The notes: generated from the letters alone by a model not told the origin. DNA of 64,000 nucleotides from Adlercreutzia faecimuris (GCF_022669055.1 NZ_JAJMLW010000003.1:124001-188000), one strand, 5' to 3'; positions 50,059-64,000 are shown, counted from the first letter of the stretch. Numbers and translations: made by a program.

Positions 50059-51114
50059 GTGGATATGATCATCGAGATTCTGAAAGCACTGCTCATCGGC
50101 ATTGTGGAGGGCATCACCGAGTGGCTGCCCATCTCCTCGACCGGCCACATGATCCTGGTCGACGAGTTCGTGAGCCTGGCCGTCAGCCCCGACTTCCTCG
50201 AGCTGTTCCTGGTGGTCATCCAGATCGGCGCCATCTGCGCCGTGCTCGTGCTGTACTTCCACAAGCTCAACCCGTTCTCGCCGCGCAAGACCGCGGCCGA
50301 GAAGCGGGGCACGTGGCGGCTGTGGGGCATGGTGGTCGTCGGGTGCATCCCGGCGGCGGCCATCGGGCTGACGCTGGACGACTTCTTCAGCGAGCACTTC
50401 TACAACGCCTGGACGGTGGCCGTCGCGCTCATCGTCTACGGCGTCGTGTTCATCGTGATCGAGCGCCACAACCGGCGCCGCGAGGCCGCCTACCTGGCCG
50501 CCGCCGGCGAGCGCCGGCGCGCCGCGGGCAGCCGCGCCGCCCAGCAGCCGGTCTTCGAGCGCCCGCGCGGCAAGCACGCGCGCGTCCCGCGCGACTACTA
50601 CGAGCGCCCCGTGGCCGAGCGCGCGGGCGACGGCGTGGTGGACGTCTACGTCGGCCCTGGCGACGACGGCGACGACGCCGAGCAGGCCCTGTTCAAGGTG
50701 CGCACCGTCGACGAGATCGACTGGAAGACGGCGCTTAAGATCGGCTGCTTCCAGATGCTGGCCATCATCCCCGGCACGTCGCGGTCCGGCTCCACCATCA
50801 TCGGCGGCATGCTCTGCGGCTGCTCGCGCACGGCGGCGGCCGAGTTCACGTTCTTCCTGGCCATCCCCGTGATGTTCGGCTGGGGCCTGCTCAAGGCGCT
50901 CAAGTTCGTCATGGGCGGCCTCGTCATGACGACCACCGAGATCGCCGTGCTGGTGACGGGCATCGTGACCGCCTTCGTCGTGTCGATCCTGTCCATCAAG
51001 TTCCTCATGGGCTACATCAAGAAGAACGACTTCACCGCCTTCGGCGTCTACCGCATCATCGTGGGCGTCGTGGTGCTGGCCTACTTCGGCTGCAAGCTCG
51101 CCAGCATCCTGTAG
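50059..51114 (+). CDS. uppP: Undecaprenyl-diphosphate phosphatase with enlarged loop
   Basis: 351 residues against about 270 in E. coli. Family motifs: [17 protein letters not shown] near the N-terminus and [17 protein letters not shown] in the second half, the catalytic Glu and Ser/Arg. About 70-80 extra polar residues (about 135-215; Arg-rich then Asp-rich) are inserted between membrane segments, on the side of the second catalytic loop. It recycles the lipid carrier for peptidoglycan and acts with the PopT transporter at 39519. GTG at 50059 follows GAGGT. Confidence 0.9.
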
Positions 51115-51177
51115 GCGCGCGGCGCGGAAGGGGACTGGCGGCGGAAGGCCGCCGGGCTGCGTCGGCCCGTGGGCCTG

Positions 51178-51347
51178 TTTCTGCCAAAAATCGGGGTTGT
51201 GCGCGCCGCCCTGCGTCGATGCCAGGGGCAATGCGGCTGGTTCGCTACTGTGACCTAGCGTTTCTGCTGCATCGGCTGGGCGTCTCCCGCGAGGACGCCT
51301 CGGAAACTCCCCTGAAGGGTTCACAGGCGGCGTTTTTGGCGGAAACC
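51178..51347. repeat. Paired-arm intergenic element D2
   Basis: Arms 51178-51207 and 51318-51347 share GTTT-TGCCAAAAA with weaker inner ends (about 11 mismatches in 30), so the element is decayed. It is class D: the right arm resembles D1 (GCCAAAAA then TGTGAACCC). The 110-bp core has GTGACCT at 51250 and CCAGGGGCAATGCGG near 51222. Confidence 0.7.
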
Positions 51348-51416
51348 AGGGCGGCTCCGCGCAAGCGCCTCGGGTGGCCGCCGTCATCGTCGTCGCCCCG
51401 GGGTCGCGCAAGCGCC

Positions 51417-51422
51417 TATAAT
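51417..51422 (+). promoter_or_regulatory. -10 box upstream of the first NrfD gene
   Basis: TATAAT at 51417-51422, 51 bp before the start. GCGCAAGCGCCT is repeated at about 51359 and 51407, the second copy abutting the -10 box, possibly an operator. Confidence 0.45.
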
Positions 51423-51472
51423 GCTGCCGAATCGGTGAGAGGGCGATAAGGCGGGAGGGGAGAGGACCGGCG

Positions 51473-52405
51473 ATGAGCGACCTGGTGGCGGCATACCTGT
51501 TCTGCGCGGGCGCGGGCTCCGGCGCCGCCTTCCTGACGGCGCTCTACGGCCTGGTCGCCGGCCGGCGCGCGGCCGGCCCCGGCAGCCCGCGCGTGCGCGC
51601 CGAGCTTACCCGCGTGGCCCTCGCCTCCTACGGCGCCGCGCTCGCGCTCCTCGTCTTCGGCATGCTCTGCCTCGTGTTCGATCTGGGGCGCCCCGACCTG
51701 GCGCTCAAGCTGTTTTTGCGCCCCCATCCCACGATGATGACCCTGGGCTCCTACGCCCTGGCCGCGCTGGCGGCGGCCCTGGTGGCGCTCATCGCGCTCG
51801 AGCTGCGCGCCCCGCGTCGCGCGGGGGCGCCCGGCCCGCGCCGGGCCCGCGTCGCCGCCCAGGTGGCGGCCGTCGTCGCGGCGGCGTGCGTCATGGTCTA
51901 CGCGGGCCTGCTGCTCGGCGCGTCCGACGAGGCGCCCCTGCTCACGACCCCGTGGCTGCCCGTGCTGTTCGTGGCGTCCGCCCTGGCCTCGGGCCTGGCG
52001 GTGGCGATGCTCGCGCTGGCCCTCGCCGGCAGCCCGCGCCTGCCCGCCGTGCGCGCCCTCGCCGGCCGGCTGACCGTCCGCGCCGATGTCGCCCTCATCG
52101 CGGCGGAGGCCGTCGCGGCAGCGGCCTACCTGGCGTCAGCGGGCGCAGGCCCCATCGGCCTGGGCGCCGCCGCTCCGCTCCTCGCCGGCGACGAGGCCGG
52201 CCTGTTCGTCGGCGGCTTCGCGGTGATCGGGATGGCGGTGCCGCTCGCCCTCGACCTGGCGCAGCTGCGGGGCGCCCTGCCGGGCTGGGCCTATCCGCTC
52301 GCCGCGGCGGCCACGCTCATCGGCGCGGCCTGCCTGCGCGTGGCCGTCATCCACGCCGGCTCGCCCGTCCTGGAGGCGCCCCTCCTCGCCCTGGGTTTTG
52401 CCTAG
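51473..52405 (+). CDS. NrfD/DmsC-type membrane anchor, stand-alone copy 1
   Basis: 310 residues, 8 or more membrane segments. DmsC/NrfD-like features: AYLFCAGAGSGAAFLTALYG at the N-terminus, FDLGRPDLALKLFLRPHPT in the second loop and TTPWLPVLFVASALASG. Such subunits hold the quinol site of molybdoenzyme complexes, but no catalytic or Fe-S subunit is adjacent. GntR and SPFH genes follow, the same order as the cassette at 62168. GGGAGGGGAGAGG precedes the ATG. Confidence 0.78.
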   Translation: MSDLVAAYLFCAGAGSGAAFLTALYGLVAGRRAAGPGSPRVRAELTRVALASYGAALALLVFGMLCLVFDLGRPDLALKLFLRPHPTMMTLGSYALAALAAALVALIALELRAPRRAGAPGPRRARVAAQVAAVVAAACVMVYAGLLLGASDEAPLLTTPWLPVLFVASALASGLAVAMLALALAGSPRLPAVRALAGRLTVRADVALIAAEAVAAAAYLASAGAGPIGLGAAAPLLAGDEAGLFVGGFAVIGMAVPLALDLAQLRGALPGWAYPLAAAATLIGAACLRVAVIHAGSPVLEAPLLALGFA

Positions 52406-52414
52406 GCGCGCCGA

Positions 52415-52450
52415 AGTGTCGCATGACATTGCGCCCGTCCGTGGGATAAT
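52415..52450 (+). promoter_or_regulatory. Promoter and candidate operator of the first GntR gene
   Basis: AGTGTC-N4-GACATT (52415-52430) is an inverted repeat with one mismatch that overlaps a -35-like ATGACA (52423-52428). GATAAT (52445-52450) lies 16 bp downstream. The word AAGTGTCGCA (52414-52423) recurs twice in the dms promoter. Autorepression by the GntR protein is inferred. Confidence 0.55.
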
Positions 52451-52495
52451 GGGCGCATAGGAGGACTCACGAGGCGAGGGAGGGTCGCGGACGCG

Positions 52496-52915
52496 GTGAC
52501 GGGCAAGGCGGTTCCAAGGTTCGAGGTGGACAAGGCGAGCAGCCTGCCTTTGTGGGTGCAGCTGCGCGACCGGTTCGTGTTCCTCATATCCTCGGGCTAC
52601 TACGAGCCCGACGAGCAGCTGCCCTCGGTGCGCAAGTTCGCCGCCGAGAACCACGTGAGCCTCAACACGGTGAGCAAGGCGTTCATGGCCCTTGAGCGCG
52701 AGGGCTACATCGTCACCCGCCACGGCAGCGGGGCCTACGTGCGCGGGGGCGTGTCCGAGGCAGTGCTGTCGGACATCGACGTCATAACGGAGGACTACGT
52801 CAGAAGCTGCCTGGAGCGCGGCATGGACCTGGAGGACATCCCGCGCTTCGTGGGCCAGGCCATCGCCCGGCTCAGGGCGGCGGGGGAGGGAGATGACCGC
52901 GATGCTCGGCCATAG
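52496..52915 (+). CDS. GntR-family (YtrA subgroup) repressor, copy 1
   Basis: 139 residues. Winged helix: LPLWVQLRDRFVFLISSGYY, EQLPSVRKFAAENHVSLNTV, GYIVTRHGSGAYV; a short C-terminal helical tail, as in YtrA regulators that control ABC or membrane genes. GTG start at 52496 with GAGGGAGGG somewhat far upstream. It overlaps the SPFH gene by 23 bp and follows the NrfD gene. A close paralogue is at 63302. Confidence 0.9.
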   Translation: MTGKAVPRFEVDKASSLPLWVQLRDRFVFLISSGYYEPDEQLPSVRKFAAENHVSLNTVSKAFMALEREGYIVTRHGSGAYVRGGVSEAVLSDIDVITEDYVRSCLERGMDLEDIPRFVGQAIARLRAAGEGDDRDARP

Positions 52916-53912
52916 CGCGCGCGGCGGCCGCGACCGCCGCGACGAGGGGGAGCGCTACCCGCTCTACGAGGGCGCGTCCGGCAACGGCCGGACCGACGTC
53001 GAGTTCGGCGCCGCCGCCGACGCCTACCGATCCGGCCGCGACCGGCGCTCGTCGCGCCTGGGGGCGGTGGCGCTCCAGGCGGCCTTCGGCCTGGCGCTCT
53101 TCGCCGTCGTCCTGGCGGCGGCGTGGCAGGCGGCGGGCGGCGTGTCGCTTCTGGCGCTCGTCGCGGCCGCCGTCGTGGGCCTGCTCGGCCTGTCGTCCAT
53201 CCACGTGGCCCTCGACTGGGAGCGCTTCGTGGTGCTGCGCGGCGGCCGCTTCCAGCGCCTGGCGGGGCCCGGCATCTTCTTCACCATCCCGCTTCTGGAG
53301 TACTGCACGCTGCGCGTCGACCAGCGCACCCAGGTCACGCCGTTCGGCGCCGAGGAGACGCTCACGGCCGACGTGGTGCCGCTCGACGTGGACGCGGTGC
53401 TGTTCTGGGTGATCTGGGATCCGGAGAAGGCGTGCACCGAGGTGGAGGACTGCTGCTTCGCGGTGGCGCTGACGGCCCAGACGGCCCTGCGCGACGCCAT
53501 CGGGCGCGCGGACGCCAGCGAGGTCATCATGCGCCGCGACCAGCTCGACCAGGAGATCAAGGACGCCATCGAGGCGCGCGTGGGCGACTGGGGCATCACC
53601 GTGCTGGGGGTGGAGGTGCGCAACATCATCCTGCCCCGGGCGCTCCAGGACGTCATGTCCCAGGAGGCCCAGGCCGAGCGGCGCCGCAGCGCGCGGCTCA
53701 CGCTCATGGAGTCCGAGAAGATGGTGGCCGAGCTGCTCTCCGAGGCCGCCGAGGTCTACCGCAACGACGAGATCGCCTACGACCTGCGCCGCATGCACCT
53801 CGTGCACGAGGGCATGCGCGACGAGAACAGCTCGCTCGTGGTGCCGTCGGCCTACACGGAGGGCTTCTCGGAGAAGCCGGCGGGGCTGGAGGAGAAGCCC
53901 CCGGCGCGCTAG
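52893..53912 (+). CDS. SPFH/band-7 (slipin-like) membrane protein
   Basis: 339 residues. A polar N-terminus (about 50 residues), two hydrophobic segments (about 55-100), then an SPFH domain: FQRLAGPGIFFTIPLLEY, RVDQRTQVTPFGAEETLTAD, DVDAVLFWVIWDPEKA, GITVLGVEVRNIILPRALQD. Slipins form membrane microdomain scaffolds and often pair with NfeD proteases, which are absent here. It starts inside the GntR gene and is translationally coupled to it. Confidence 0.88.
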   Translation: MTAMLGHSARGGRDRRDEGERYPLYEGASGNGRTDVEFGAAADAYRSGRDRRSSRLGAVALQAAFGLALFAVVLAAAWQAAGGVSLLALVAAAVVGLLGLSSIHVALDWERFVVLRGGRFQRLAGPGIFFTIPLLEYCTLRVDQRTQVTPFGAEETLTADVVPLDVDAVLFWVIWDPEKACTEVEDCCFAVALTAQTALRDAIGRADASEVIMRRDQLDQEIKDAIEARVGDWGITVLGVEVRNIILPRALQDVMSQEAQAERRRSARLTLMESEKMVAELLSEAAEVYRNDEIAYDLRRMHLVHEGMRDENSSLVVPSAYTEGFSEKPAGLEEKPPAR

Positions 53913-54027
53913 GGGGCGCCCGCGCGCGGCGCGGCGGTGGCATCGCCCGCGTCCTCGCGCCGCGCCGCGTCGCGTCGCGCCCGGCGGCCGGGGTGCGGCA
54001 GCGCCCGTGGAGGGGGCCTTCCCGCGA

Positions 54028-54093
54028 AGTGTCCCAACTTTTTCAAAAAGTGTCGCAATACACCTTGACTGTATTGCGACACTTTTGCATACT
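54028..54093 (+). promoter_or_regulatory. Promoter and operators of the dms operon
   Basis: TTGACT (54065-54070), 17 bp, CATACT (54088-54093). A perfect 16-bp inverted repeat (54046-54061 with 54071-54086, arm AAAAGTGTCGCAATAC) surrounds the -35 box and fills the spacer. ACTTTTTCAAAAAGT (54036-54050) is a second, overlapping palindrome, and AGTGTC occurs again at 54028. AAGTGTCGCA is shared with the gntR promoter at 52414. Repression by the nearby GntR is a reasonable inference. Confidence 0.75.
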
Positions 54094-54102
54094 GTGGCCC
54101 AT

Positions 54103-54118
54103 GAGAACAGGCCAGTTC
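54103..54118. promoter_or_regulatory. Inverted repeat in the dms leader
   Basis: AGAAC-N6-GTTCT lies at about +3 to +18 of the predicted transcript, a possible further operator or small hairpin. Confidence 0.35.
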
Positions 54119-54246
54119 TGATCACCTAGCCATGAGAGGGGGCGGCGGGGTGGGCGAGGCGCCGCGGGCGCCCTCGCCGGCAGCCGGCTCGCTGCAGCGC
54201 CGGCCGACGCACCGCCGCGGCCCATCAGAATCACCTGGGAGGAGAT

Positions 54247-56661
54247 ATGGGAGAAACCACGGTTTCACGGGGAGCGCTCTCTCGACGCAGCTTCCTGAAG
54301 GGCGCCGGCGCCGCAGCCGGCGCGCTCGGCCTGGCCGGCGCGGCCGGCATGACCACCGCGCAGGACTGGCTCGCCCCCGCCAAGGCCCACGCCGAGGGCG
54401 AGGAGCGCGTGGCGTACCTGTGCCATCAGTTCCACTGCCTGAGCGCCTGCTGCCTCAAGTGCACGGTGCGAGACGGCCGCCTGGCCCTCATCGAGCCGAA
54501 CGATGCCCTGCGCGAGGAGGACCAGCGCATCTGCCTGCGCGGCATCAACGAGATCCAGCACGTGTACGCCGCCGACCGCATCCAGACGCCGCTGCGGCGC
54601 GTCGGCGAGCGCGGCGAGGGCAAGTTCGAGGCCATCACCTGGGACGAGGCCATCAAGGCCGTCGCCGACGCCATCAAGGAGTCCCAGGCCAAGTACGGCG
54701 ACAACTCGTTCTTCTTCCGCAAGTCGACGGAGGCGAGCTCGGCCCACGGCTCCGGCTACCTGGCGGCGCTCCTGCATGCCGAGACGGGCGGCAACTGGGG
54801 CCTCGACCGCGGCCAGGCGAACGGCCTGGACGCCGGCTGTGGCGTCGGCGCCTTCCGCGCCACTAACAACGCCCTGGCGGAGTGGCCCCTGGCCTCGACC
54901 ATCATCTTCCTCGGGTTCAACCCCCTGGAGAGCAGCATCGCCTGGACCAAGGCGTTCTTCGACGCGAAGGACGCGGGCGCCAAGATCATCACCGTCGACA
55001 CGCGCTTCAGCCCCACGGCCTCCAAGTCGCACCAGTGGGTGTCGGTGAAGCCCGGCACCGACGCGGCGCTCGTCATCGGCATGGTGCGCGCCATCATGGA
55101 CGAGGGCTGGTATGACGAGGAGTTCATGAAGGCCCACACCGGCTATCCCTTCCTCATCGACCGGGCGACCGGCGAGGTCTACGGCGTCATGCGCGATGTC
55201 ACCGACGAGAAGACGGGGAAGGTGTCCCGGAAGAAGGCTCCCTACGTCTGGGACGTCGCGACGGGCACCGCGCGCCTCTTCGACGAGGAGGGGGTCGACC
55301 CCGCCCTCGAGGGCACCTGGGAGGTCGACGGCCGCACGCTCGTCACCGAGTTCAGCGCGCTCAGGGAGGCCTACGAGCCCTATACCCTGGAATGGGCGGG
55401 CGAGGTCTCGAGCGTCGATCCCGCCGTCATCCGCGGCTTGGCCGATGATTACGCCAACCGCGGCCCCGCCTTCCTCTGCTTCGGCCTGGGCGGCCCGGAC
55501 AAGTACACCAACGCCGACGTCCTGGGCCACGCGCTCGTCCTGGTGACGGCGCTCACGGGCAACACCGGCAAGAAGGGCTGCGGCACGGGATGGTACGGCG
55601 GAGGCGGCGCCTTCCACGCCACTTCGGCCCTGCAGTCGTGGAAGCTGCCCGAGGAGTTCAAGGCGAGCAAGTCGCAGATGCCCATGTACGACATGCCCTA
55701 CAACGACAACAACGTCCACGTGGCCCTCACGTTCGGCGATGCCTTCACGCTCGAGGCGGCCGACGCCAACAGCATGCTCGAGTGGGTGAAGGGCCTCGAC
55801 TTCTTCGCCATCTGCGACATCTACCACTCCTCGGCGGTGGATTATGCCGACATCGTGCTGCCGGCCTGCTCCAAGTTCGAGTGCGACGAGGAGGTCACCG
55901 ACCTGCGCGACGCCAAGGGCTACCTGTCGTTGGGCCAGAAGTGCATCGACCCGCTGTTCGAGTCGAAGACCGACCTGGAGATCGAGCGACTCATCGCGGC
56001 GCAGTGGGGCTACGACCAGTACCTGCCGAAGAGCCACGAGGAATACGCGCGCCACCGCCTCTCCAAGGCCAAGGGCAACATCGAGGGATTCACCATCGAG
56101 AAGTTCCAGGCCAACCAGGGCGTGCTTCGCTACCTCGACTCCGACGAGCCGGTGCGCAGCACCCTCAAGTTCGCCACCGACACCGGCCGCATGGAGCCCT
56201 ACTACGAGAAGCAGATCAAGTTCGGCCAGGCATTCCCCACCTATGAGACGCCCAACGAGGCCTACGAGGACAACGCCAAGCGTCAGCAGTACCCGCTCGT
56301 GTTCATGCAGGGCAAGAGCTGCTTCCGCATCCACGCCTACTACAGCGCGTCGGCGTGGTTCCAGGAGTACTTCGGCCCGCAGGTCAACATCAGCCCCGTC
56401 GACGCCGAGGCGCGCGGCATAGCCACCGGGGACGCGGTGCGCATTACCAACGACCGCGGCACGTTCGTCTGCACGGCCCTGGTGAACAACGCCATCCAGC
56501 CGGGCACCCTGTTCATGGCGGAGACCACGTACAACCACTACTACCCCGAGGGATTCCTGCAGAACGTCACCAACTCCCATCGCCAGGAGCGGTGCTATGA
56601 GATGACCTACGGCCCGCAGATTCCCTATAACGACACCCTCGTCGAGATCGAGAAAGCGTAG
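54247..56661 (+). CDS. Tat-exported molybdopterin oxidoreductase, DMSO reductase family
   Basis: 804 residues. Twin-arginine signal SRRSFLKG (12-19) with likely cleavage after AKAHA (about 49). The N-terminal Fe-S motif uses Cys59, Cys64, Cys68 and Cys96. Further family blocks: FLGFNPLES, DTRFSPTA, the cofactor-binding region ACSKFECDEEVTDLRDAKGY, and GDAVRITNDRG in the C-terminal barrel. The Mo ligand cannot be assigned with confidence, so the substrate (sulfoxide, N-oxide, catechol or other) is open. Followed by Fe-S, membrane and chaperone subunits. GGAGGAG precedes the ATG. Confidence 0.92.
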   Translation: MGETTVSRGALSRRSFLKGAGAAAGALGLAGAAGMTTAQDWLAPAKAHAEGEERVAYLCHQFHCLSACCLKCTVRDGRLALIEPNDALREEDQRICLRGINEIQHVYAADRIQTPLRRVGERGEGKFEAITWDEAIKAVADAIKESQAKYGDNSFFFRKSTEASSAHGSGYLAALLHAETGGNWGLDRGQANGLDAGCGVGAFRATNNALAEWPLASTIIFLGFNPLESSIAWTKAFFDAKDAGAKIITVDTRFSPTASKSHQWVSVKPGTDAALVIGMVRAIMDEGWYDEEFMKAHTGYPFLIDRATGEVYGVMRDVTDEKTGKVSRKKAPYVWDVATGTARLFDEEGVDPALEGTWEVDGRTLVTEFSALREAYEPYTLEWAGEVSSVDPAVIRGLADDYANRGPAFLCFGLGGPDKYTNADVLGHALVLVTALTGNTGKKGCGTGWYGGGGAFHATSALQSWKLPEEFKASKSQMPMYDMPYNDNNVHVALTFGDAFTLEAADANSMLEWVKGLDFFAICDIYHSSAVDYADIVLPACSKFECDEEVTDLRDAKGYLSLGQKCIDPLFESKTDLEIERLIAAQWGYDQYLPKSHEEYARHRLSKAKGNIEGFTIEKFQANQGVLRYLDSDEPVRSTLKFATDTGRMEPYYEKQIKFGQAFPTYETPNEAYEDNAKRQQYPLVFMQGKSCFRIHAYYSASAWFQEYFGPQVNISPVDAEARGIATGDAVRITNDRGTFVCTALVNNAIQPGTLFMAETTYNHYYPEGFLQNVTNSHRQERCYEMTYGPQIPYNDTLVEIEKA

Positions 56662-56671
56662 GTGAGAGGCG

Positions 56672-57289
56672 ATGACTAAGCTCGGCCTCGCGATCAGCCT
56701 TGATCGCTGCATCGGCTGCCAGACGTGCGCCAATGCCTGCAAGATGCAGAACAGCGTGCCCATGGGCATGCAGTGGAACCGCGTGGTCACCGAGGGATGC
56801 GACATCATGGACGGCGCCCACGGCACCTACCCCGACCTGTCGCGCACCTACCTGCCCATCGCGTGCCAGCACTGCGAGAACCCGGCCTGCCTGAAGGTGT
56901 GCCCGACCGGCGCCACCTACAAGGACGAGATGGGCCGCGTGGAGATCAACTACGACAACTGCATCGGGTGCCGCATGTGCATGGCGGCGTGCCCCTACAA
57001 CGCGCGCTCCTTCAACTGGGAGGACCCGGTGCACGACCCCGACTTCAACTACGGGGACAAGGACGTGCCCGTCCGCGTGAAGGGCGTGGCGGAGAAGTGC
57101 ACGCTGTGCAAGGAGCGCACCGACCGCGGCGACGAGCCCATGTGCGTCAAGTGCTGCCCCACCAAGGCGCGCACCTTCGGCGACCTCGACGACCCGAAGA
57201 GCGCCATCTCCCAGCTCATCCGCGAGAAGCACGCCTACGTGCTGCTCGAGGACAAGGGCACTAAGCCCCAAGTCCACTACTTCGATTAG
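56672..57289 (+). CDS. DmsB-like four-cluster ferredoxin subunit
   Basis: 205 residues. Four cysteine groups for 4Fe-4S clusters: CIGCQTCANAC, CQHCENPACLKVCP, CIGCRMCMAACP, and CTLCKERTDRGDEPMCVKCC. It wires electrons from the membrane subunit to the molybdenum subunit on the periplasm-equivalent side, travelling through Tat with it. 10 bp separate it from the preceding stop. Confidence 0.95.
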   Translation: MTKLGLAISLDRCIGCQTCANACKMQNSVPMGMQWNRVVTEGCDIMDGAHGTYPDLSRTYLPIACQHCENPACLKVCPTGATYKDEMGRVEINYDNCIGCRMCMAACPYNARSFNWEDPVHDPDFNYGDKDVPVRVKGVAEKCTLCKERTDRGDEPMCVKCCPTKARTFGDLDDPKSAISQLIREKHAYVLLEDKGTKPQVHYFD

Positions 57290-57301
57290 GAGCGTGCGAT
57301 C

Positions 57302-58489
57302 ATGCGACTGCTTACCAAGAACAAGCTCCTCACCGGCGTGCTGGCCGTGCTGTCGGTCGCCGGCGTGGGGGCGTGGATCTACCAGCTCATGGGCGGCCTG
57401 GCCGTCACCGGCATGTCCAACGCCAACTCCTGGGGCCTCTACATCGCCCTGTTCATGTTCTTCGTGGGGCTCTCGGCCGGCGGCCTCATCGTGGCCTCGT
57501 CGGCGAGCGTGTTCCACATCGAGAAGTACAAGCAGGTGGCGATGCCGGCCATCATCCTGTCCACGGTGTGCATCTGCTGCGCCGGCGCCTTCGTCCTCAT
57601 CGACCTGGGCGGCATCCAGCGCATCTGGCACCTCTTCGCCAGCCCCAACCTGGCGAGCCCGCTCGTGTGGGACATCTGCGTCATCACGCTGTACCTGGTC
57701 ATCAACGTGCTGTACCTGCGCTTCATGCACCGGGGCGCCGAGCACGCGGTGGCGGTGCTCTCCCGCTTCGCGCTGCCTACCGCCGTACTCGTGCACTCGG
57801 TGACCGCGTGGATCTTCGGCCTGCAGATCGCCAAGGAGGGCTGGTTCTCGGCCATCATGGCGCCCATCTTCGTGGCGAGCGCCATGGACTCGGGCCTGGC
57901 CCTGCTGCTCATCGTGCTGGTGGCGCTCAACGCGGCCGGCGTGTTCGAGACGCCCAAGCGGCTCATCGCGTCGCTCGCGGGGCTGCTGGCCACCTGCATC
58001 GCCATCGACGGCTTCCTCATCTTCTGCGAGGCGCTCACCATGGGCTACCCCGGCGCCGCGGGCGCCGAGACGCTGGCCGTCATGGTGTCCGGCCCCACGG
58101 CCCCCTTCTTCTGGGCCGAGGTCGTCGGCGGCCTGGCCGTGCCGTTCCTCATCCTCGTGTTCGCCAAGAATCGCGAGCGCACGGGGCTCGTGGTGGGCGC
58201 GAGCGTGCTGGTGGTGGCCGGCGTGCTGTGCAAGCGCCTGTGGCTTCTGCTGACCGCCTTCGTCATCCCCAACATCGTCGGCGCGCCGGGCGTGCTGAGC
58301 GGCGCCTGGATGATGGCGGGCTCCTACGCGCCCACCGCGGTGGAGGTGCTCATCGTGCTGGGGGTGCCGTCCCTGGGCGCGCTGGCCTTCATGGCCCTGG
58401 GCTCCAAGCTGCTGGCGCCGGCCGGCGCCGAGGAGCGGGCGTCCGCGCCCGCTGCGGCCGAGCTCGACCTGGAGGCGCAGACGGCCTAG
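57302..58489 (+). CDS. NrfD/PsrC-type membrane anchor
   Basis: 395 residues with 9-10 membrane segments: NSWGLYIALFMFFVGLSAGG near the N-terminus is the NrfD signature (GLSAG), with IDLGGIQRIWHLFASPNLAS and HSVTAWIFGLQIAKEGWFSA. Oxidises menaquinol and passes electrons to the ferredoxin subunit. This is the PsrC-like 10-TM type, unlike the DmsC-type genes at 51473 and 62168. Ends with an Ala/Glu tail. Confidence 0.92.
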   Translation: MRLLTKNKLLTGVLAVLSVAGVGAWIYQLMGGLAVTGMSNANSWGLYIALFMFFVGLSAGGLIVASSASVFHIEKYKQVAMPAIILSTVCICCAGAFVLIDLGGIQRIWHLFASPNLASPLVWDICVITLYLVINVLYLRFMHRGAEHAVAVLSRFALPTAVLVHSVTAWIFGLQIAKEGWFSAIMAPIFVASAMDSGLALLLIVLVALNAAGVFETPKRLIASLAGLLATCIAIDGFLIFCEALTMGYPGAAGAETLAVMVSGPTAPFFWAEVVGGLAVPFLILVFAKNRERTGLVVGASVLVVAGVLCKRLWLLLTAFVIPNIVGAPGVLSGAWMMAGSYAPTAVEVLIVLGVPSLGALAFMALGSKLLAPAGAEERASAPAAAELDLEAQTA

Positions 58490-58507
58490 GGCCGCGTCTC
58501 CGCGCGA

Positions 58508-58545
58508 CGTCGCCGCGGCCGGATCCCTCCCCGGTCGCGGCGACG
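58508..58545 (+). other. Hairpin between the NrfD and torD genes
   Basis: CGTCGCCGCG (58508-58517) pairs with CGCGGCGACG (58536-58545). A second stem, CGCGGGCCCG with CGGGCCCGCG, lies at 58569-58602. Without U-runs these may attenuate or process the operon so that torD is made at a lower level. Confidence 0.45.
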
Positions 58546-58630
58546 CTCCCTCCCTGCTTGCGACCTTGCGCGGGCCCGCTGCCGCCGCGGCCCGGGCCCG
58601 CGTTCCCGCACCTCCGAGAAAGGCACCGCC

Positions 58631-59278
58631 ATGAGCGCTCTTCAGCCCGCCGACCACGGAACCCTCGCCGACGCCTACGCGTTTCTGGGCAACTCGCTGC
58701 TTAAGCCGCTGTCGCAGACGCCCGCCGTCGGGCTCGACCCCGCCTTCTGGGCGGCGTTCCCCGACTTCGGCTCGGATGCCGTGGCCGCGGCGGCCGATGC
58801 GCTGGCACGCTGGGCGGCCGAGGACGCCGGCCGCCCGGACGGCGATCGTGTCCGCGACGTCTCCGTCGAGTACACCCGCCTGTTCATCGGGCCGCCCAAG
58901 CCGGCCGCCCCTCCGTGGGAGACCATGGGCCGCGGCGAGGGCGTCACGGTGGGCTTCGGCGACCCCACCTTCGAGATGCGGCGGCTGCTGCGCGAGGCGG
59001 GGCTCGAGCTCTCCAACGAGAATCGCCAGTACGAGGATCACCTGGGCATCGAGCTGCTCTACCTGAGCGAGCTCTGCCGCCGCGCCGCCGAGGCCGCCGC
59101 CGACGGGCGCGCCGACGAGGCCGCGCGCCTGGACGTCCAGGCGGCCGCCTTCGCCGCCGAGCACCCGCTCGCCTGGATCGACGCGCTTCGCGCCCAGGTG
59201 GCCGAGGCGGCGCCCGGCGGCTACTACGCGCTCCTGCTCGCGCTGGCCCGGACGCTCCTGGCCCTGCAGGTCGGCTGA
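58631..59278 (+). CDS. TorD-family molybdoenzyme chaperone
   Basis: 215 residues. Family markers: VEYTRLFIGPPKPAAPPWE, then YEDHLGIELLYLSEL and EHPLAWIDALRAQV. It binds the twin-arginine leader of the oxidoreductase at 54247 until the cofactor is inserted. Last gene of the dms operon, 141 bp after the membrane subunit with hairpins between. GAGAAAGG precedes the ATG. Confidence 0.9.
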   Translation: MSALQPADHGTLADAYAFLGNSLLKPLSQTPAVGLDPAFWAAFPDFGSDAVAAAADALARWAAEDAGRPDGDRVRDVSVEYTRLFIGPPKPAAPPWETMGRGEGVTVGFGDPTFEMRRLLREAGLELSNENRQYEDHLGIELLYLSELCRRAAEAAADGRADEAARLDVQAAAFAAEHPLAWIDALRAQVAEAAPGGYYALLLALARTLLALQVG

Positions 59279-59332
59279 TCGGCGGGCCGGGCGCGCGGCA
59301 CCCGCGGATGCCCCGCCGCCCGCCGCCCGGCG

Positions 59333-59368
59333 CCGGCAGGCGCTCCGCGTCCGCCCGGCGCCTGCGGG
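59333..59368. terminator. Hairpin between torD and the SMR gene
   Basis: An 11-bp stem with one mismatch (59333-59343 with 59358-59368) lies between convergent genes; no U-run. Confidence 0.4.
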
Positions 59369-59375
59369 CCGCGCG

Positions 59376-59699
59376 CTAGCCCTCGCCGCCGACCAGCTTC
59401 AGGCCGATGACGCAGCCGACGAGCCCGGCGATGAGCGCGATGCGCGCGAAGGTGGCCGGCTCGCTGCCCGTCGCCATGCCGTAGACGACCGTCAGCGCCG
59501 CGCCGATGCCCACCCACACCGCGTAGGCCGTGCCCATGGGCAGCGTCTTCGTGGCGAAGGCGAGCCCCGCCATCGACAGCGCCATGGCCGCCAGGAACAC
59601 GACGGTCGGCCCCGGCTGCGTGAGCCCGTCGGACTTGCCGAGCGCGACGGCCCACACCGACTCCATCACCCCCGACGCGATGAGCACCGCCCAGTCCAT
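59376..59699 (-). CDS. Small multidrug-resistance (SugE/Gdx-like) transporter
   Basis: 107 residues, four membrane segments. The essential Glu is in VMESVWAVALGK; TLPMGTAYAVWVGIGAALT is the SMR signature. SugE/Gdx proteins export guanidinium or quaternary ammonium as antiparallel dimers. No guanidine riboswitch was recognised upstream; element A3 begins 25 bp before the start. The ATG at 59699 follows GAAGGGGG. Confidence 0.88.
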   Translation of the reverse strand: MDWAVLIASGVMESVWAVALGKSDGLTQPGPTVVFLAAMALSMAGLAFATKTLPMGTAYAVWVGIGAALTVVYGMATGSEPATFARIALIAGLVGCVIGLKLVGGEG

Positions 59700-59723
59700 C
59701 AGCAGCCCCCTTCGACGGCGCGC

Positions 59724-59930
59724 TGGCCAGCAAACGGGCCCGCGGCGCACATTTTTTCAACTTTGTCGCTGCCGGCGGGCACGTTGGCAGCGAATCGGAA
59801 TACCGCCACCTGGGGTTTCGCCGATGCCGGCGTTCGGCGGACGCGATGGGCCCTGTATCTGATGGCGAAAAGCGGCTGAATCGAGCGACAAAGTTGAAAA
59901 AATGTGCGCGAAACCGCCGTTGCCTGGCCA
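59724..59930. repeat. Paired-arm intergenic element A3
   Basis: Arms 59724-59770 and 59884-59930, 47 bp each, with the perfect class A inner 26 bp (59745-59770 and 59884-59909) and outer TGGCCAG ends. The core is 113 bp with CACCTGGGGTTTCGCC at 59807. It separates two minus-strand genes and includes the probable sugE promoter region. Confidence 0.93.
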
Positions 59931-59966
59931 GGCGCCCCGCCTTGCGGGCGCCGCGGGCCTGCGGCG

Positions 59967-60692
59967 CTAGGCATCGATGACCATCTCGCGGTTGTCGCGG
60001 GTGATGATCTCCCGCGCGAAGATGGTGGCGCCCAGGTGCCCCTCGACCAGGCTGGCCAGCTCGTCGACGGCGGCCTCCAGGTCGGCGGCGCGCGTCGGGT
60101 CGACCGACTCGATGATGAGGAACGCCTTGGCCGTCTCGTCGGTCAGCGCCGTGCGCTCGCCGTCGCGCCAGTTCCAGCAGCGGCAGATGGCGCCCGCGTC
60201 GTCGCGGTAGCACAGCTCGCCGGCGAGCGTGGGGGCGTCCTCGTCCTCGCCGAGCGGGCGGAAGGCGTCGCCGCCCTCGGTGACGCCCAGGCGGATGTCG
60301 CCGGCCATCGCGTCGATGTCTTCGCCGCCGACGGGCAGCGCATAGGCGAGCGACACGGCGTTGTAGGCGTCCACCGACGGCGTGATGGAGCCGACGGGAT
60401 TGCCCTTCAGCACGCGCTTGAGCAGGTTCTCCACCGAGCAGCGCACCCCCTTCTTCGTCTTGAACCGCTGGTAGGCGTCGCGCCAGACGGCTACCGCCTC
60501 GTTCTGCGAGATGGTGTTGGACGTGAGGTGCGCATCGGCCGCGGCGTTGGCCTCGGCCAGGCGGCGGGCGAGGGCGCGGGCGTCCTCCTCGGGCACCGCG
60601 GCGGTCGGGCGCATCCCATGCGCGACGACGACGCCGATGCGCGCGTCGGGGAACAGCTCCCAGAACGACTCCTCGGTCACGAATCTCTTCAT
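59967..60692 (-). CDS. Stand-alone B3/4-domain protein
   Basis: 241 residues. Matches the B3/4 domain of phenylalanyl-tRNA synthetase beta chains: SITPSVDAYNAVSLAYALPV, TLAGELCYRDDAGAICRCWN and AFLIIESVD. Free-standing copies may bind or edit mischarged tRNA, or have other ligands. AAGGAGGAG precedes the ATG at 60692. It lies downstream of the small-RNA/attenuator candidate 60801-60894. Confidence 0.85.
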   Translation of the reverse strand: MKRFVTEESFWELFPDARIGVVVAHGMRPTAAVPEEDARALARRLAEANAAADAHLTSNTISQNEAVAVWRDAYQRFKTKKGVRCSVENLLKRVLKGNPVGSITPSVDAYNAVSLAYALPVGGEDIDAMAGDIRLGVTEGGDAFRPLGEDEDAPTLAGELCYRDDAGAICRCWNWRDGERTALTDETAKAFLIIESVDPTRAADLEAAVDELASLVEGHLGATIFAREIITRDNREMVIDA

Positions 60693-60800
60693 GGCTCCTC
60701 CTTCGGTCGGGCGCCGGCATGGCGACACGGCGCGGGCGTGCCGGCCGCCGTCCCCGCTGCGTTGGCGCGCCCTCGCGCGGTTCCGCCTTCGCGGCGCAAC

Positions 60801-60894
60801 AAAAAAGCACCCACCTGATGAGCATCTTCAAAGGCCTAACGATGCGCATCAAATGAGTGCTTGGGGCCTACCCGGCGGCAGGCTATGTCTACGG
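60801..60894 (-). ncRNA. Small RNA or transcription attenuator candidate
   Basis: A promoter (60901-60929) and an intrinsic terminator bound about 94 nt on the minus strand. The predicted RNA has a 5' hairpin (GCCTGCC with GGTAGGC) and a long terminal hairpin (60862-60857 AAGCAC with 60810-60805 GTGCTT, plus nested TGATG/CATCA and GATGC/GCATC pairs) followed by six U (60806-60801). It ends 108 nt before the B3/4 gene, so it is either a free small RNA or a leader attenuator of that gene. No known riboswitch or T-box was recognised. Confidence 0.5.
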
Positions 60895-60900
60895 CCGCGT

Positions 60901-60929
60901 ACTATAGCATGCGCCGCGCCGCCGCGCAA
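60901..60929 (-). promoter_or_regulatory. Promoter of the small RNA/leader
   Basis: On the minus strand TTGCGC (60929-60924), 17 bp, TATAGT (60906-60901). Confidence 0.6.
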
Positions 60930-61297
60930 CGGCGTCGGGCGCAGCACGCGGGAGCGGCGGTGCGGTGCGTGCCGGGTGGGGCGGCGCGTGGGCGCCGCGC
61001 GCGGCGTTCGACCGGCGGGGCGTCCTGGCGGGCACGGCGGCATGTCGCGCCTGCGCCGACAGCCTGCGGTGCGGCACGTGCCGCGGCGCGGCGAGATATG
61101 TGCGCCGTGCGTCGGCAAGGCGGTATGCCGCATCCGCGCCGACGGTCTATGGCGCGGGGCGAGAAGTTCGCGGGCGCCGCGAACGGGGAGTGTGGGGGAG
61201 GGCGCGGCTGCGACAGGCGGCGCATGGTTGCGGCGGGCCCCGCACGGAGGTGGGGGCGGGATCGGCAGCCGCCTATCGCGCCGCGGATGCGCCGAAA
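60930..61297. other. Intergenic, no supported gene
   Basis: Upstream of the small-RNA promoter. Open frames exist on several strands, but they have no ribosome sites, no recognisable protein and no codon periodicity I would trust. Confidence 0.5.
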
Positions 61298-61300
61298 GTG

Positions 61301-61437
61301 CGATTTGGTGCAGGGCTGGGCCGCCTTGGCCGGCTGGGCGCCTTCGACTTGGATGCGCGACCTGGCGAGGCGCCCGCGCATGCGACCATGCGCGCCCGGC
61401 CTGTCGTCTCCCGTGGGGCCTTCTATGCACCAAATCG
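61301..61437. repeat. Paired-arm intergenic element G1 (decayed)
   Basis: Only 12 bp of each arm match perfectly (CGATTTGGTGCA at 61301-61312 and its complement at 61426-61437). The 113-bp core contains GCGACCTGGCGAGGCGC (GACCTGG at 61359-61365), which supports membership. Confidence 0.65.
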
Positions 61438-61497
61438 TAATTCTCGCGTATTCGGGATGCGCCGGCTGGCGTCGCGCCGCCGCGCGACGGTGCTGTC

Positions 61498-61722
61498 GGA
61501 CACCTTTGCCGACCACGATGGCAAGATAGCGAGGTTTGGCATACTGTGTCGGGTTTCGGCGTGAGGCCCTCCGTAGGGCCATTCGCGAAAGGCCTGGTGA
61601 ACATTGTTCTCGGCGAGGGTTAGTCTTTGCGCCGGCGGCTGTTCGGGCGAAAAACCCGCGATTCGGCGCCCGTGACTATGCCAAACCTCGCTATCTTGCC
61701 ATCAGGCGGGCTAAAAGTGTCC
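61498..61722. repeat. Paired-arm intergenic element C2
   Basis: Arms 61498-61543 and 61677-61722, 46 bp. The inner 26 bp (GATGGCAAGATAG then CGAGGTTTGGCATA) are perfect inverted copies; outer ends share GGACAC. The core is 133 bp, the longest seen, with a weak motif (CCTGGTGAAC at 61593). Class C, as C1. Confidence 0.92.
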
Positions 61723-61828
61723 ACGGTCATCGCGGCGGCGCCTCGCCGAGCGCCCGATCCAAACGCCCGCGCTCCTGCCTCCTGGCAGCTGCGACCCCTC
61801 TTCCCGATGCGCCCCCCGCGGGCGCCCG

Positions 61829-61920
61829 CGTCCCCGCCTCCTGCTGCGTCCCCCGCGAGCCCCTGCGTCTCCGCCTCCTGCTGCGTCCCCCGCGAGCCCC
61901 TGCGTCTCCGCCTCCTGCTG
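61829..61920 (+). repeat. 37-bp tandem repeat, 2.5 copies
   Basis: Units begin at 61829, 61866 and 61903 (CGTCTCCGCCTCCTGCTGCG at each start); the first two differ by one base and the third is partial. No protein is supported in any frame. Confidence 0.8.
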
Positions 61921-62111
61921 GTCTCCGCGCGCCCGCGGCTCTACCCCGCCGGCGCGCACCCCTGCCGCATCCCGGCGCTCTCACCGCGCTCCCCGCCTCG
62001 TCGGTGCGCGGCCCCGTCGCATCCCGGCGCTCTCGCCGGGCACGCCTCGCCGCGCACCGCGCCGCCGCACAACGGCGCGCATCGCGAGGCCGCCCTACCC
62101 GAACGCGCGAA

Positions 62112-62127
62112 ATTGTCTTATGATAAT
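62112..62127. promoter_or_regulatory. Candidate operator upstream of the second NrfD gene
   Basis: ATTGTC-N4-GATAAT, with the same geometry as AGTGTC-N4-GACATT at 52415. GATAAT or the overlapping TATGAT may be the -10 box. Binding by the GntR protein encoded downstream is inferred. Confidence 0.45.
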
Positions 62128-62167
62128 CCGAGAAACGGTGGCGGCGCGAGCGAGAGGGGAGGGGAGC

Positions 62168-63268
62168 GTGTTCGGCGAGCTGGTGGTGGGCTACCTGTTC
62201 CTCGGCGGCGCGGGCGCCGGCGGGTGCCTCACGTGCGCCCTGCTGGGGCTGCTGGCCGATCGCGAGGCGCTCGCCCCGGCGCTGGCGGCGCGCTTCCGGA
62301 CGGGCGCGGGCCGACGCTGGACGCGGCTGCTCGCCCCGGCGCTCACCCTGTCGGTCGGGTGCCTGGTGCTGGGCATCGTGTGCCTGGCGGCCGACCTGGG
62401 GCGGCCCGACCGGCTGCTCTTGCTGATGGTGTCGGCCACGCCCTCCTACATCTCGTTCGGCGCGTGGGCGCTCGTCGCCTGCACGCTGCTGGGCGTGGCG
62501 CTCGCCGCCGTGTGGCGCGGCGCCGTGGCCGCCCGCGCGGGCGCGCTGGCGGCCCTCGAGGCGCTCACGGCGGCAGCGGCCCTCGCCACGGCCGCCTACA
62601 CGGGGCTCCTGCTGGCGTCGATGCCCTCGGTGCCGCTGTGGTGCACCCCCTGGCTGCCGGTGCTGTTCACGCTGTCGGCGGCCTCCTGCGGCATCGCGCT
62701 CGTGATGGCCGCGGCGTGGGTGTCGGGCGCGGCGACCGACTTCGGCGCGGTGCTCGCCCGGCTCGCGCTGGCCGACGCGGCGCTCATCGCGCTGGAGGCC
62801 GTCGCCGCCGCGGGGGCCCTGCTGTCGGCGTGGGCGTCATCGGGCGCGCCGGCCGCCGACCTGGCCGCCGGCCTGCTCGCGGGCGCGGGCGTGCTGCCCG
62901 ATGCCGCCGGCGCCGCCGCCACGCCCACGGCCGCCGCGGCCCGCGCCTCGGTGCTCACCCTGACGGCCGGCCCCGACGCCTGGCTGTTCTGGGGCGGCTT
63001 CGGCCTCGCGGGGCTCGCGGCGCCCCTGGCCCTTGACCTGGTCCTCTACGGCGACGGCCGCCGCCTCGCCCGGCGGGCCGCCCGCGCCGCCGCGCCCCGT
63101 GCCCCCGCGGCCGTGCCCCGCACCCCGGCGTCGGCGCCCCCGCTTTCCCCATCCGCCCGCGCCCTGACGGCCATGGCCGCCGCGGCCTGCGTGCTCGTCG
63201 GCGGCCTGCTGCTGCGCGTCCTCGTCGTGGGCGCCGGCTTGCACCCGCTGATCGGCGCCGTCCTGTAA
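62168..63268 (+). CDS. NrfD/DmsC-type membrane anchor, stand-alone copy 2
   Basis: 366 residues, 8 or more membrane segments; N-terminal VVGYLFLGGAGAGGCLTCAL, loop LAADLGRPDRLLLLMVSATP and CTPWLPVLFTLSAASCG align by order with the copy at 51473. Ala/Pro-rich inserts (about 235-265 and 305-330) enlarge it. No catalytic subunits adjacent. GTG at 62168 follows GAGGGGAGGGGAG; an in-frame ATG at 62120 would start inside the operator. Cotranscribed with the GntR gene 33 bp downstream. Confidence 0.78.
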   Translation: MFGELVVGYLFLGGAGAGGCLTCALLGLLADREALAPALAARFRTGAGRRWTRLLAPALTLSVGCLVLGIVCLAADLGRPDRLLLLMVSATPSYISFGAWALVACTLLGVALAAVWRGAVAARAGALAALEALTAAAALATAAYTGLLLASMPSVPLWCTPWLPVLFTLSAASCGIALVMAAAWVSGAATDFGAVLARLALADAALIALEAVAAAGALLSAWASSGAPAADLAAGLLAGAGVLPDAAGAAATPTAAAARASVLTLTAGPDAWLFWGGFGLAGLAAPLALDLVLYGDGRRLARRAARAAAPRAPAAVPRTPASAPPLSPSARALTAMAAAACVLVGGLLLRVLVVGAGLHPLIGAVL

Positions 63269-63301
63269 GATGCCAACCGCCTGAAGAGAGAGGTCGTGCC
63301 C

Positions 63302-63769
63302 ATGTTCCCCTTCGAGATAGACGAGTCCAGCGACGTGCCCCTGTGGGTGCAGCTGCGCCAGCGCATCGCGTACCTCATCAACTCGGGGTACTTCAAGCCG
63401 GGCGAGAAGCTGCCCACCGTGCGCGGCCTGGCCTCGGAGATATCCATCAACTACAACACCGTCAACAAGGCCTACCTGAGCCTGGTGTCCGACGGCTACC
63501 TGGAATCCACGCGCGGCCGCGGCGTGTTCGTGCGCGATGTGGCGGCCGACCTGGGCGAGGACCAGGCGGGGCGCGTGCGCGGGGTGCTGGACGACTGCAT
63601 CGTCGCCTGCCGCGAGATGGGCATGGGACTCGACGAGATCGACCAGGCCATGTCGCGGCGTATCAAGCGAATCAAGTACGACGAGGCCCAGGTCGCGGGC
63701 ACGACGCCCGGCGGCCGCATCCTCGACTTCGACCGCACCCGCGACGACGCGGGCGCCCAGGGAGCGTGA
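63302..63769 (+). CDS. GntR-family (YtrA subgroup) repressor, copy 2
   Basis: 155 residues. FEIDESSDVPLWVQLRQRIA, EKLPTVRGLASEISINYNTV and GYLESTRGRGVFVRD parallel the first GntR almost residue for residue in the winged helix. The C-terminal tail is longer and more charged. The ATG at 63302 fits GAGAGAGG at 8 nt; GTG at 63296 is too close to it. Likely autoregulates the NrfD-GntR unit. Confidence 0.9.
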   Translation: MFPFEIDESSDVPLWVQLRQRIAYLINSGYFKPGEKLPTVRGLASEISINYNTVNKAYLSLVSDGYLESTRGRGVFVRDVAADLGEDQAGRVRGVLDDCIVACREMGMGLDEIDQAMSRRIKRIKYDEAQVAGTTPGGRILDFDRTRDDAGAQGA

Positions 63770-63774
63770 GGCAG

Positions 63775-64000
63775 ATGGCGTTCGGGAGAAGGCGGGCCGC
63801 CCAGGCCCAGGTGGCGATGGCGGACGGCGGTGCGACGCCCGCGGCCGCGCAGGCCCGCGGCGGGCGCGGCCGCCTGCGCGTGGCGCCCGACCCGGTGACC
63901 GAGGTCATCGGCGAGCGCGCCTCCAACGGCGGCGTGCTCCTGTTCTCGGTCGTGCTGTTCGCCCTGGCCTTCGCCGCGGTGCTGGCGGCGGGCACGGCCG
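63775..64000 (+). CDS. Membrane protein, possible second SPFH-like gene (cut by window)
   Basis: 75 codons are visible. A polar Arg/Ala/Gly-rich N-terminus of about 50 residues is followed by a hydrophobic segment (VLLFSVVLFALAFAAVLAAG). The layout matches the first ~75 residues of the SPFH gene at 52893, and the position after NrfD and GntR is the same, so a paralogue is likely. The SPFH domain itself would be outside the window. GTGAGG precedes the ATG at 63775. Confidence 0.55.
   Translation, partial: MAFGRRRAAQAQVAMADGGATPAAAQARGGRGRLRVAPDPVTEVIGERASNGGVLLFSVVLFALAFAAVLAAGTA

Follow-up and report, generated by a model that had tools for sequence, protein, structure and literature searches.

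Operons of the DmsABC, PsrABC, and Nrf types combine a catalytic subunit, a 4Fe-4S subunit, and an NrfD anchor with a twin-arginine (Tat) signal and a TorD-type chaperone. Repressors of the YtrA type, within the GntR family, are short winged-helix proteins without an effector domain; their genes lie near those of membrane proteins, with palindromic sites nearby, and usually accompany ABC transporters. Stomatin-type SPFH proteins with a membrane hairpin are known from slipin/stomatin-NfeD operons, and HflK-HflC also have a membrane-bound SPFH domain. Here, we describe a cassette that brings such proteins together. Genes for an NrfD-like membrane anchor, a short GntR regulator, and an SPFH protein occur twice in this order in a 64,000-base stretch (C3:124001-188000; the window) of the 2.79-Mb genome of Adlercreutzia faecimuris. 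Eggerthellaceae, a family of gut bacteria, carry dozens of molybdoenzymes, with relatives that act on drugs, steroids, and dietary compounds.

The trio probably acts as an accessory module for anaerobic molybdopterin-oxidoreductase operons and regulates itself; the GntR would repress both the cassette and the enzyme operon, and the stomatin-type scaffold would serve the quinone-type anchor/enzyme complex. The cassette looks like a dedicated control-and-membrane module rather than an orphan.

Cassettes and adjacent molybdoenzyme operons

The order NrfD-GntR-SPFH, noticed at 51473-53912 and from 62168 in an initial annotation of the window, was borne out by matches to the Pfam NrfD, GntR, and Band_7 profiles:

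51473..52405, + strand: copy 1 NrfD-like membrane anchor, 310 amino acids, multiple helices (Pfam NrfD, E = 8e-22)
52496..52915, + strand: copy 1 short GntR, YtrA-like, without an effector domain (Pfam GntR, 3e-13)
52893..53912, + strand: copy 1 stomatin-type SPFH protein with polar N terminus and membrane hairpin, start inferred (Band_7, 6e-30; stomatin, 160 bits; model and fold match)
62168..63268, + strand: copy 2 NrfD-like membrane anchor (Pfam NrfD, 7.5e-17)
63302..63769, + strand: copy 2 short GntR (Pfam GntR, 4e-15)
63775..64000, + strand: first part of the copy 2 SPFH gene, which ends at about 64782 (C3:188782), about 782 bases outside the window (Band_7, 8e-36)

The gene continuing beyond position 64000 carries an SPFH domain (C3:188075-188587). 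In copy 1, the polar N terminus of the SPFH protein was modelled with low confidence, as if disordered.

The cassettes had been thought to lack catalytic subunits, which proved incorrect. All six cassettes of the genome lie upstream of molybdopterin oxidoreductase and Fe-S genes on the same strand, and five of the six operons include an NrfD gene as well. Since the genome holds 58 matches to the molybdopterin oxidoreductase profile PF00384 in 2.79 Mb (approximately 1 per 48 kb), it is very unlikely that six of six cassettes would adjoin such a gene by chance. The operon following copy 1 contains these genes:

54247..56661, + strand: molybdopterin catalytic subunit of the dimethyl sulfoxide reductase family with a Tat signal (Molybdopterin, 8e-40; Molydop_binding; TAT_signal)
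56672..57289, + strand: 4Fe-4S electron-transfer subunit (ferredoxin; cysteine motifs in the translation, Fe-S profile match)
57302..58489, + strand: second NrfD-type anchor, DsrP-like, part of the catalytic operon (NrfD, 3e-45; DsrP, 1e-42, below cutoff)
58631..59278, + strand: TorD/DmsD-type chaperone (Nitrate_red_del, 1.5e-25)

Its catalytic subunit reached 287 bits with the dmsA_ynfE model, under the cutoff of 777.7. For copy 2, another molybdopterin operon starts just outside the window. Copy 1 appears to serve the dms-like operon inside the window and copy 2 the operon outside it. Unlike DmsABC/PsrABC/Nrf-type operons, these are preceded by an additional anchor gene and by GntR and SPFH genes dedicated to them.

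The six loci also show some local peculiarities. A LysR-like gene separates cassette and operon at one of them and a toxin-antitoxin-like pair at another; PIN-like and antitoxin-like genes lie on the opposite strand between the SPFH gene and the catalytic operon at L027:12093-12873. The catalytic gene after copy 2 has a nine-G run in its Tat signal, where the reading frame is broken (C3:189083-189189; L032:9084-9190), through either an assembly error or phase variation.

The arrangement is kept in many genera, as a search of relatives showed. Cassette-type SPFH proteins were defined by a score of at least 335 bits, the next scores falling to 125 bits; the hidden Markov model thresholds were of our choosing, and E values in genome searches are per genome. 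By this definition, 21 of 40 sampled family genomes carried cassette-type SPFH genes, with up to 11 per genome. Their occurrence among 149 genomes of the class was limited to Eggerthellaceae and one genome of another family, and a search of 296 genomes of the phylum turned up none beyond the family. The A. faecimuris genome has seven Band_7 genes, six of them within cassettes. Carriers named in a scan of public genomes were Gordonibacter, Raoultibacter, Slackia, Adlercreutzia, Parvibacter, Eggerthella, Paraeggerthella, Enteroscipio, and others, with the addition of one Bacillota and two Anaerolineales metagenome-assembled genomes (MAGs).

The resulting collection comprises 160 distinct cassettes, nearly all from Eggerthellaceae; it is not a random sample, close relatives are counted separately unless identical, and the counts include loci cut by contig ends. 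A GntR gene adjoined the SPFH gene in 86 of 87 cassettes of the first collection (whole genomes) and in 156 of the 160, so this pairing is not due to chance. An NrfD-like anchor was present in 145. Catalytic or Fe-S genes lay downstream in 60 of the 75 first-collection cassettes with at least 5 kb of downstream sequence. For the union of 160, a catalytic gene was found downstream in 110 and catalytic plus Fe-S genes upstream in 20, with any of these on the same strand in 135, which argues against anchors without an oxidoreductase.

In the upstream-type cassettes, the NrfD-like gene occupies the position of the C subunit in an A-B-C operon; the Bacillota MAG also has this type of order (catalytic-chaperone-FeS-NrfD-GntR-SPFH). 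No further anchor was detected with the NrfD profile, which anchors of other families would escape, in 32 cassettes with downstream catalytic and Fe-S genes. The cassette anchor may be the enzyme's only anchor in those 32, and elsewhere it would be a second one.

Palindromic sites in cassette and operon promoters

Recurrent palindromic words were located in the promoter regions of both cassettes and operons. Those in the window, with the promoter-like sites that accompany them, are as follows:

52414..52428, + strand: copy 1 putative operator AAGTGTCGCATGACA upstream of gntR, which overlaps with the promoter-like site at 52423-52450 (recurrence of the word AAGTGTCGCANNACA)
52423..52450, + strand: promoter-like site ATGACA-16-GATAAT of gntR-SPFH (51100-64000 contains only one other such site)
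54048..54062, + strand: copy 1 putative operator 1 before the catalytic operon (word recurrence in window and genome)
54065..54093, + strand: promoter-like site of the catalytic operon, TTGACT-17-CATACT, which falls between and inside the operators (promoter scan)
54070..54084, - strand: copy 1 putative operator 2, inside the -35/-10 spacer (word recurrence in window and genome)
62113..62125, + strand: copy 2 putative operator TTGTCTTATGATA before the NrfD-like gene (one of exactly five genome sites, all at this locus)

With at most one mismatch allowed, three instances of the word AAGTGTCGCANNACA were counted in the window (0.02 expected); one precedes gntR, and the other two, in inverted orientation, precede the catalytic operon. 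Its 14-base core has three sites in the 2.79-Mb genome, only those at the copy 1 locus. Both of the promoter-like sites found in the 12.9-kb region 51100-64000 are overlapped by copy 1 words. The copy 2 word, TTGTCNTATGAYW, has five genome sites: one before the NrfD-like gene, two before the first catalytic operon, and two before a second molybdoenzyme operon (C3:193589-193621; L032:13590-13622). This distribution suggests that one cassette may regulate two enzymes. The word of a third cassette (C1:868k) has three genome sites with one mismatch allowed; one lies upstream of the cassette, and the other two precede its operon. Reversed-pattern controls for the genome-wide words gave no matches. 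At yet another cassette (C1:854k), the promoter region of the following catalytic operon contains a ten-G run between palindrome arms (C1:856077; L027:13078), where slippage control is possible.

The same organization recurs beyond A. faecimuris. Tandem palindromes were found at 28 loci among 108 cassette-to-operon gaps, compared with 0.15 (maximum, 2) in random sequence, in a layout of operator, TTGA (-35 box), operator inside the spacer, and TATA-type -10. Exact TGTC-N4-GACA sites numbered 13 in 58 gaps (0.3 expected), with none in a 205-kb coding control. The palindrome motif was picked after reading the six A. faecimuris loci, so that the other loci, and not those six, constitute independent evidence. 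The word core varies between loci and agrees within a locus: cassette and operon sites of one locus were alike at 11.8 of 14 positions, versus 10.5 when permuted (P = 5e-4). Such locus-private words are what a set of paralogous regulators, each with sites of its own, would produce. Direct 16-mer matching of upstream regions (13.4 observed versus 13.0) was uninformative because the high G+C background swamps it, and palindrome tests were used instead.

We infer that the GntR binds these sites because it is the regulator common to all these loci, and repression, rather than activation, is proposed because the sites overlap promoters. A dimer of the short GntR would bind TGTC-N4-GACA-type palindromes, both the single site in the promoter that drives the cassette and the two tandem sites around the -35 box of the neighbouring catalytic operon, and would keep both transcription units repressed until an inducing signal releases it. 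A subset of the molybdoenzymes in each genome would then have a predicted dedicated regulator with exact sites.

Several observations weigh against the proposed module. Within reach of 25 of the 160 cassettes, some of them at contig ends, there was no same-strand catalytic or Fe-S gene. The tandem motif was recognized under one consensus in only about a quarter of the gaps, the others having other palindromes or none recognized, and no operator was found directly before the copy 1 anchor gene. Finally, the two Anaerolineales MAGs have GntR-SPFH followed by a YhfC-family membrane protein, with no molybdoenzyme seen nearby, so the GntR-SPFH pair is not bound to molybdoenzymes everywhere.

Co-inheritance of the trio and candidate roles of its proteins

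Each of the six A. faecimuris paralogues falls into a separate SPFH-tree clade that also contains orthologues from other genera, and the minor order NrfD-SPFH-GntR forms a single clade of 21. The description of the cassette as duplicated in the initial annotation holds only loosely, with six copies in the genome. A recent local duplication was rejected, as the window copies are only 38 to 47% identical and belong to different clades; they are ancient paralogues. Over 103 cassettes, anchor, GntR, and SPFH distances correlated with one another (rho, 0.46 to 0.63; best for SPFH and anchor, 0.63), compared with 0.15 to 0.22 for the downstream catalytic subunit. Because the trees of the trio agree with one another and hardly with that of the catalytic subunit, the trio moves as one module, apparently an old unit that changes operons.

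Conservation as a unit upholds part of the original idea, that of a hitherto unrecognised membrane unit that has its own repressor-type regulator along with a scaffold of the microdomain type. The rest of that idea, a stand-alone sensor of the quinone pool or an organiser of complexes without its own enzyme, is very improbable. The three members of the trio do co-evolve with one another, their link to the neighbouring catalytic subunit being weak, and the Anaerolineales pair (L259:9480-12456 and L260:5511-7534, where the other membrane partner is of the YhfC intramembrane-protease family) has no molybdoenzyme nearby. However, a catalytic operon adjoins most cassettes, and the palindromes of the cassette recur in the promoter of that operon and, for the three cassettes tested, nowhere else in the genome.

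The cassette GntRs of the window (139 and 155 amino acids) matched only PF00392 above the cutoff, and their closest PDB relatives are short, single-domain GntRs of 113 to 134 amino acids. They resemble YtrA-type repressors but accompany respiratory anchors and molybdoenzymes; no ABC transporter was seen within the six cassettes or before their operons when the gene list was inspected by eye, without an ABC profile.

The NrfD-like anchors scored 62 to 79 bits (cutoff, 25.8). The model of the copy 1 anchor (pLDDT, 92) matched the ActC/NrfD subunit of alternative complex III with a TM score of 0.76. The anchor consensus retains a DLGRPDR stretch, and an Fe-S partner gene adjoins. From sequence and model, we propose that the NrfD-like protein is a quinone-type membrane subunit.

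For the SPFH protein, profile scores were highest with stomatin (160 bits), followed by QmcA (98), HflC/K (about 50), and prohibitin (29). The Band_7 domain follows an N-terminal membrane hairpin, and the best fold match was human stomatin, which in PDB 9zd2 is bound to aquaporin 1, an earlier example of a stomatin whose client is a polytopic membrane protein. Unlike in slipin/stomatin-NfeD operons, the stomatin-type protein is partnered here by a GntR and an NrfD-like protein. A slipin-NfeD identity was rejected because NfeD (PF01957) had no match in the A. faecimuris genome; the control was positive in 12 of 14 genomes. An HflK/HflC identity was rejected as well, since scores of 50 to 61 bits were below the HflK cutoff of 159 and each cassette encodes a single SPFH protein.

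It is improbable that the GntR merely controls the operon, with the NrfD-like protein a mere anchor and the SPFH protein a linkage passenger or part of generic FtsH membrane quality control. HflK/HflC models do match the cassette SPFH weakly, and the HflK-HflC complex affects respiration generally in Escherichia coli (PMC12005517). Against this stand the nearness of the SPFH protein to stomatin in both sequence and fold, its dedication to individual cassettes, with up to 11 in one genome, and its close tracking of the anchor. Within the proposed module, the SPFH protein would be made together with the anchor and would probably assemble into a membrane ring or cage, thereby gathering or stabilising the anchor/enzyme complex. 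Such a complex is a concrete candidate client for a bacterial stomatin-type protein, and the role of bacterial SPFH proteins could be tested enzyme by enzyme.

The near-invariant GntR-SPFH pair, found also in Bacillota and Chloroflexota MAGs, together with the lack of an effector domain in the GntR, is consistent with a signal relay, which we regard as unlikely though worth considering. The NrfD-like protein would sense quinone state or substrate, and the SPFH oligomer, more antirepressor than scaffold, would hold the GntR at the membrane or release it, with derepression as the result. There is no direct evidence of GntR-SPFH contact, and many short GntRs work without a membrane partner. We are rather doubtful of a related conjecture, in which the SPFH oligomer would be a membrane-bound antirepressor that captures or frees the GntR according to the state of its quinone-type anchor or of the enzyme, so that each molybdoenzyme would have a private membrane-to-promoter switch, movable between operons.

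The Eggerthella lenta steroid cluster

For the cassette combination, only two mentions, both in E. lenta, were found in the open-access literature. One is Cac6, the SPFH protein of the digoxin cluster (PMC5953540), which we did not count as a cassette member; no cassette-type match lay near that position in the relative G103. The other is Elen_2451-2454, encoding FdhD, a ferredoxin, a molybdopterin oxidoreductase, and an SPFH protein, which are reported to 21-dehydroxylate steroids (PMC11835702, a comment on McCurry et al.). The available portion of that comment describes four genes with an unexplained SPFH and does not mention an upstream NrfD-like gene and GntR, operators, or family-wide recurrence.

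G103 carries NrfD-like, GntR, SPFH, catalytic, ferredoxin, and FdhD genes in this order at 2.87 Mb (locus L263), which is where the position of cgr2 (PMC5953540) would place Elen_2451-2454, and the last four are in the same order as the E. lenta genes. We infer from gene order and position that the two loci correspond, locus tags included. If so, the upstream GntR and NrfD-like genes would belong to the 21-dehydroxylation system, as its candidate regulator and membrane subunit.

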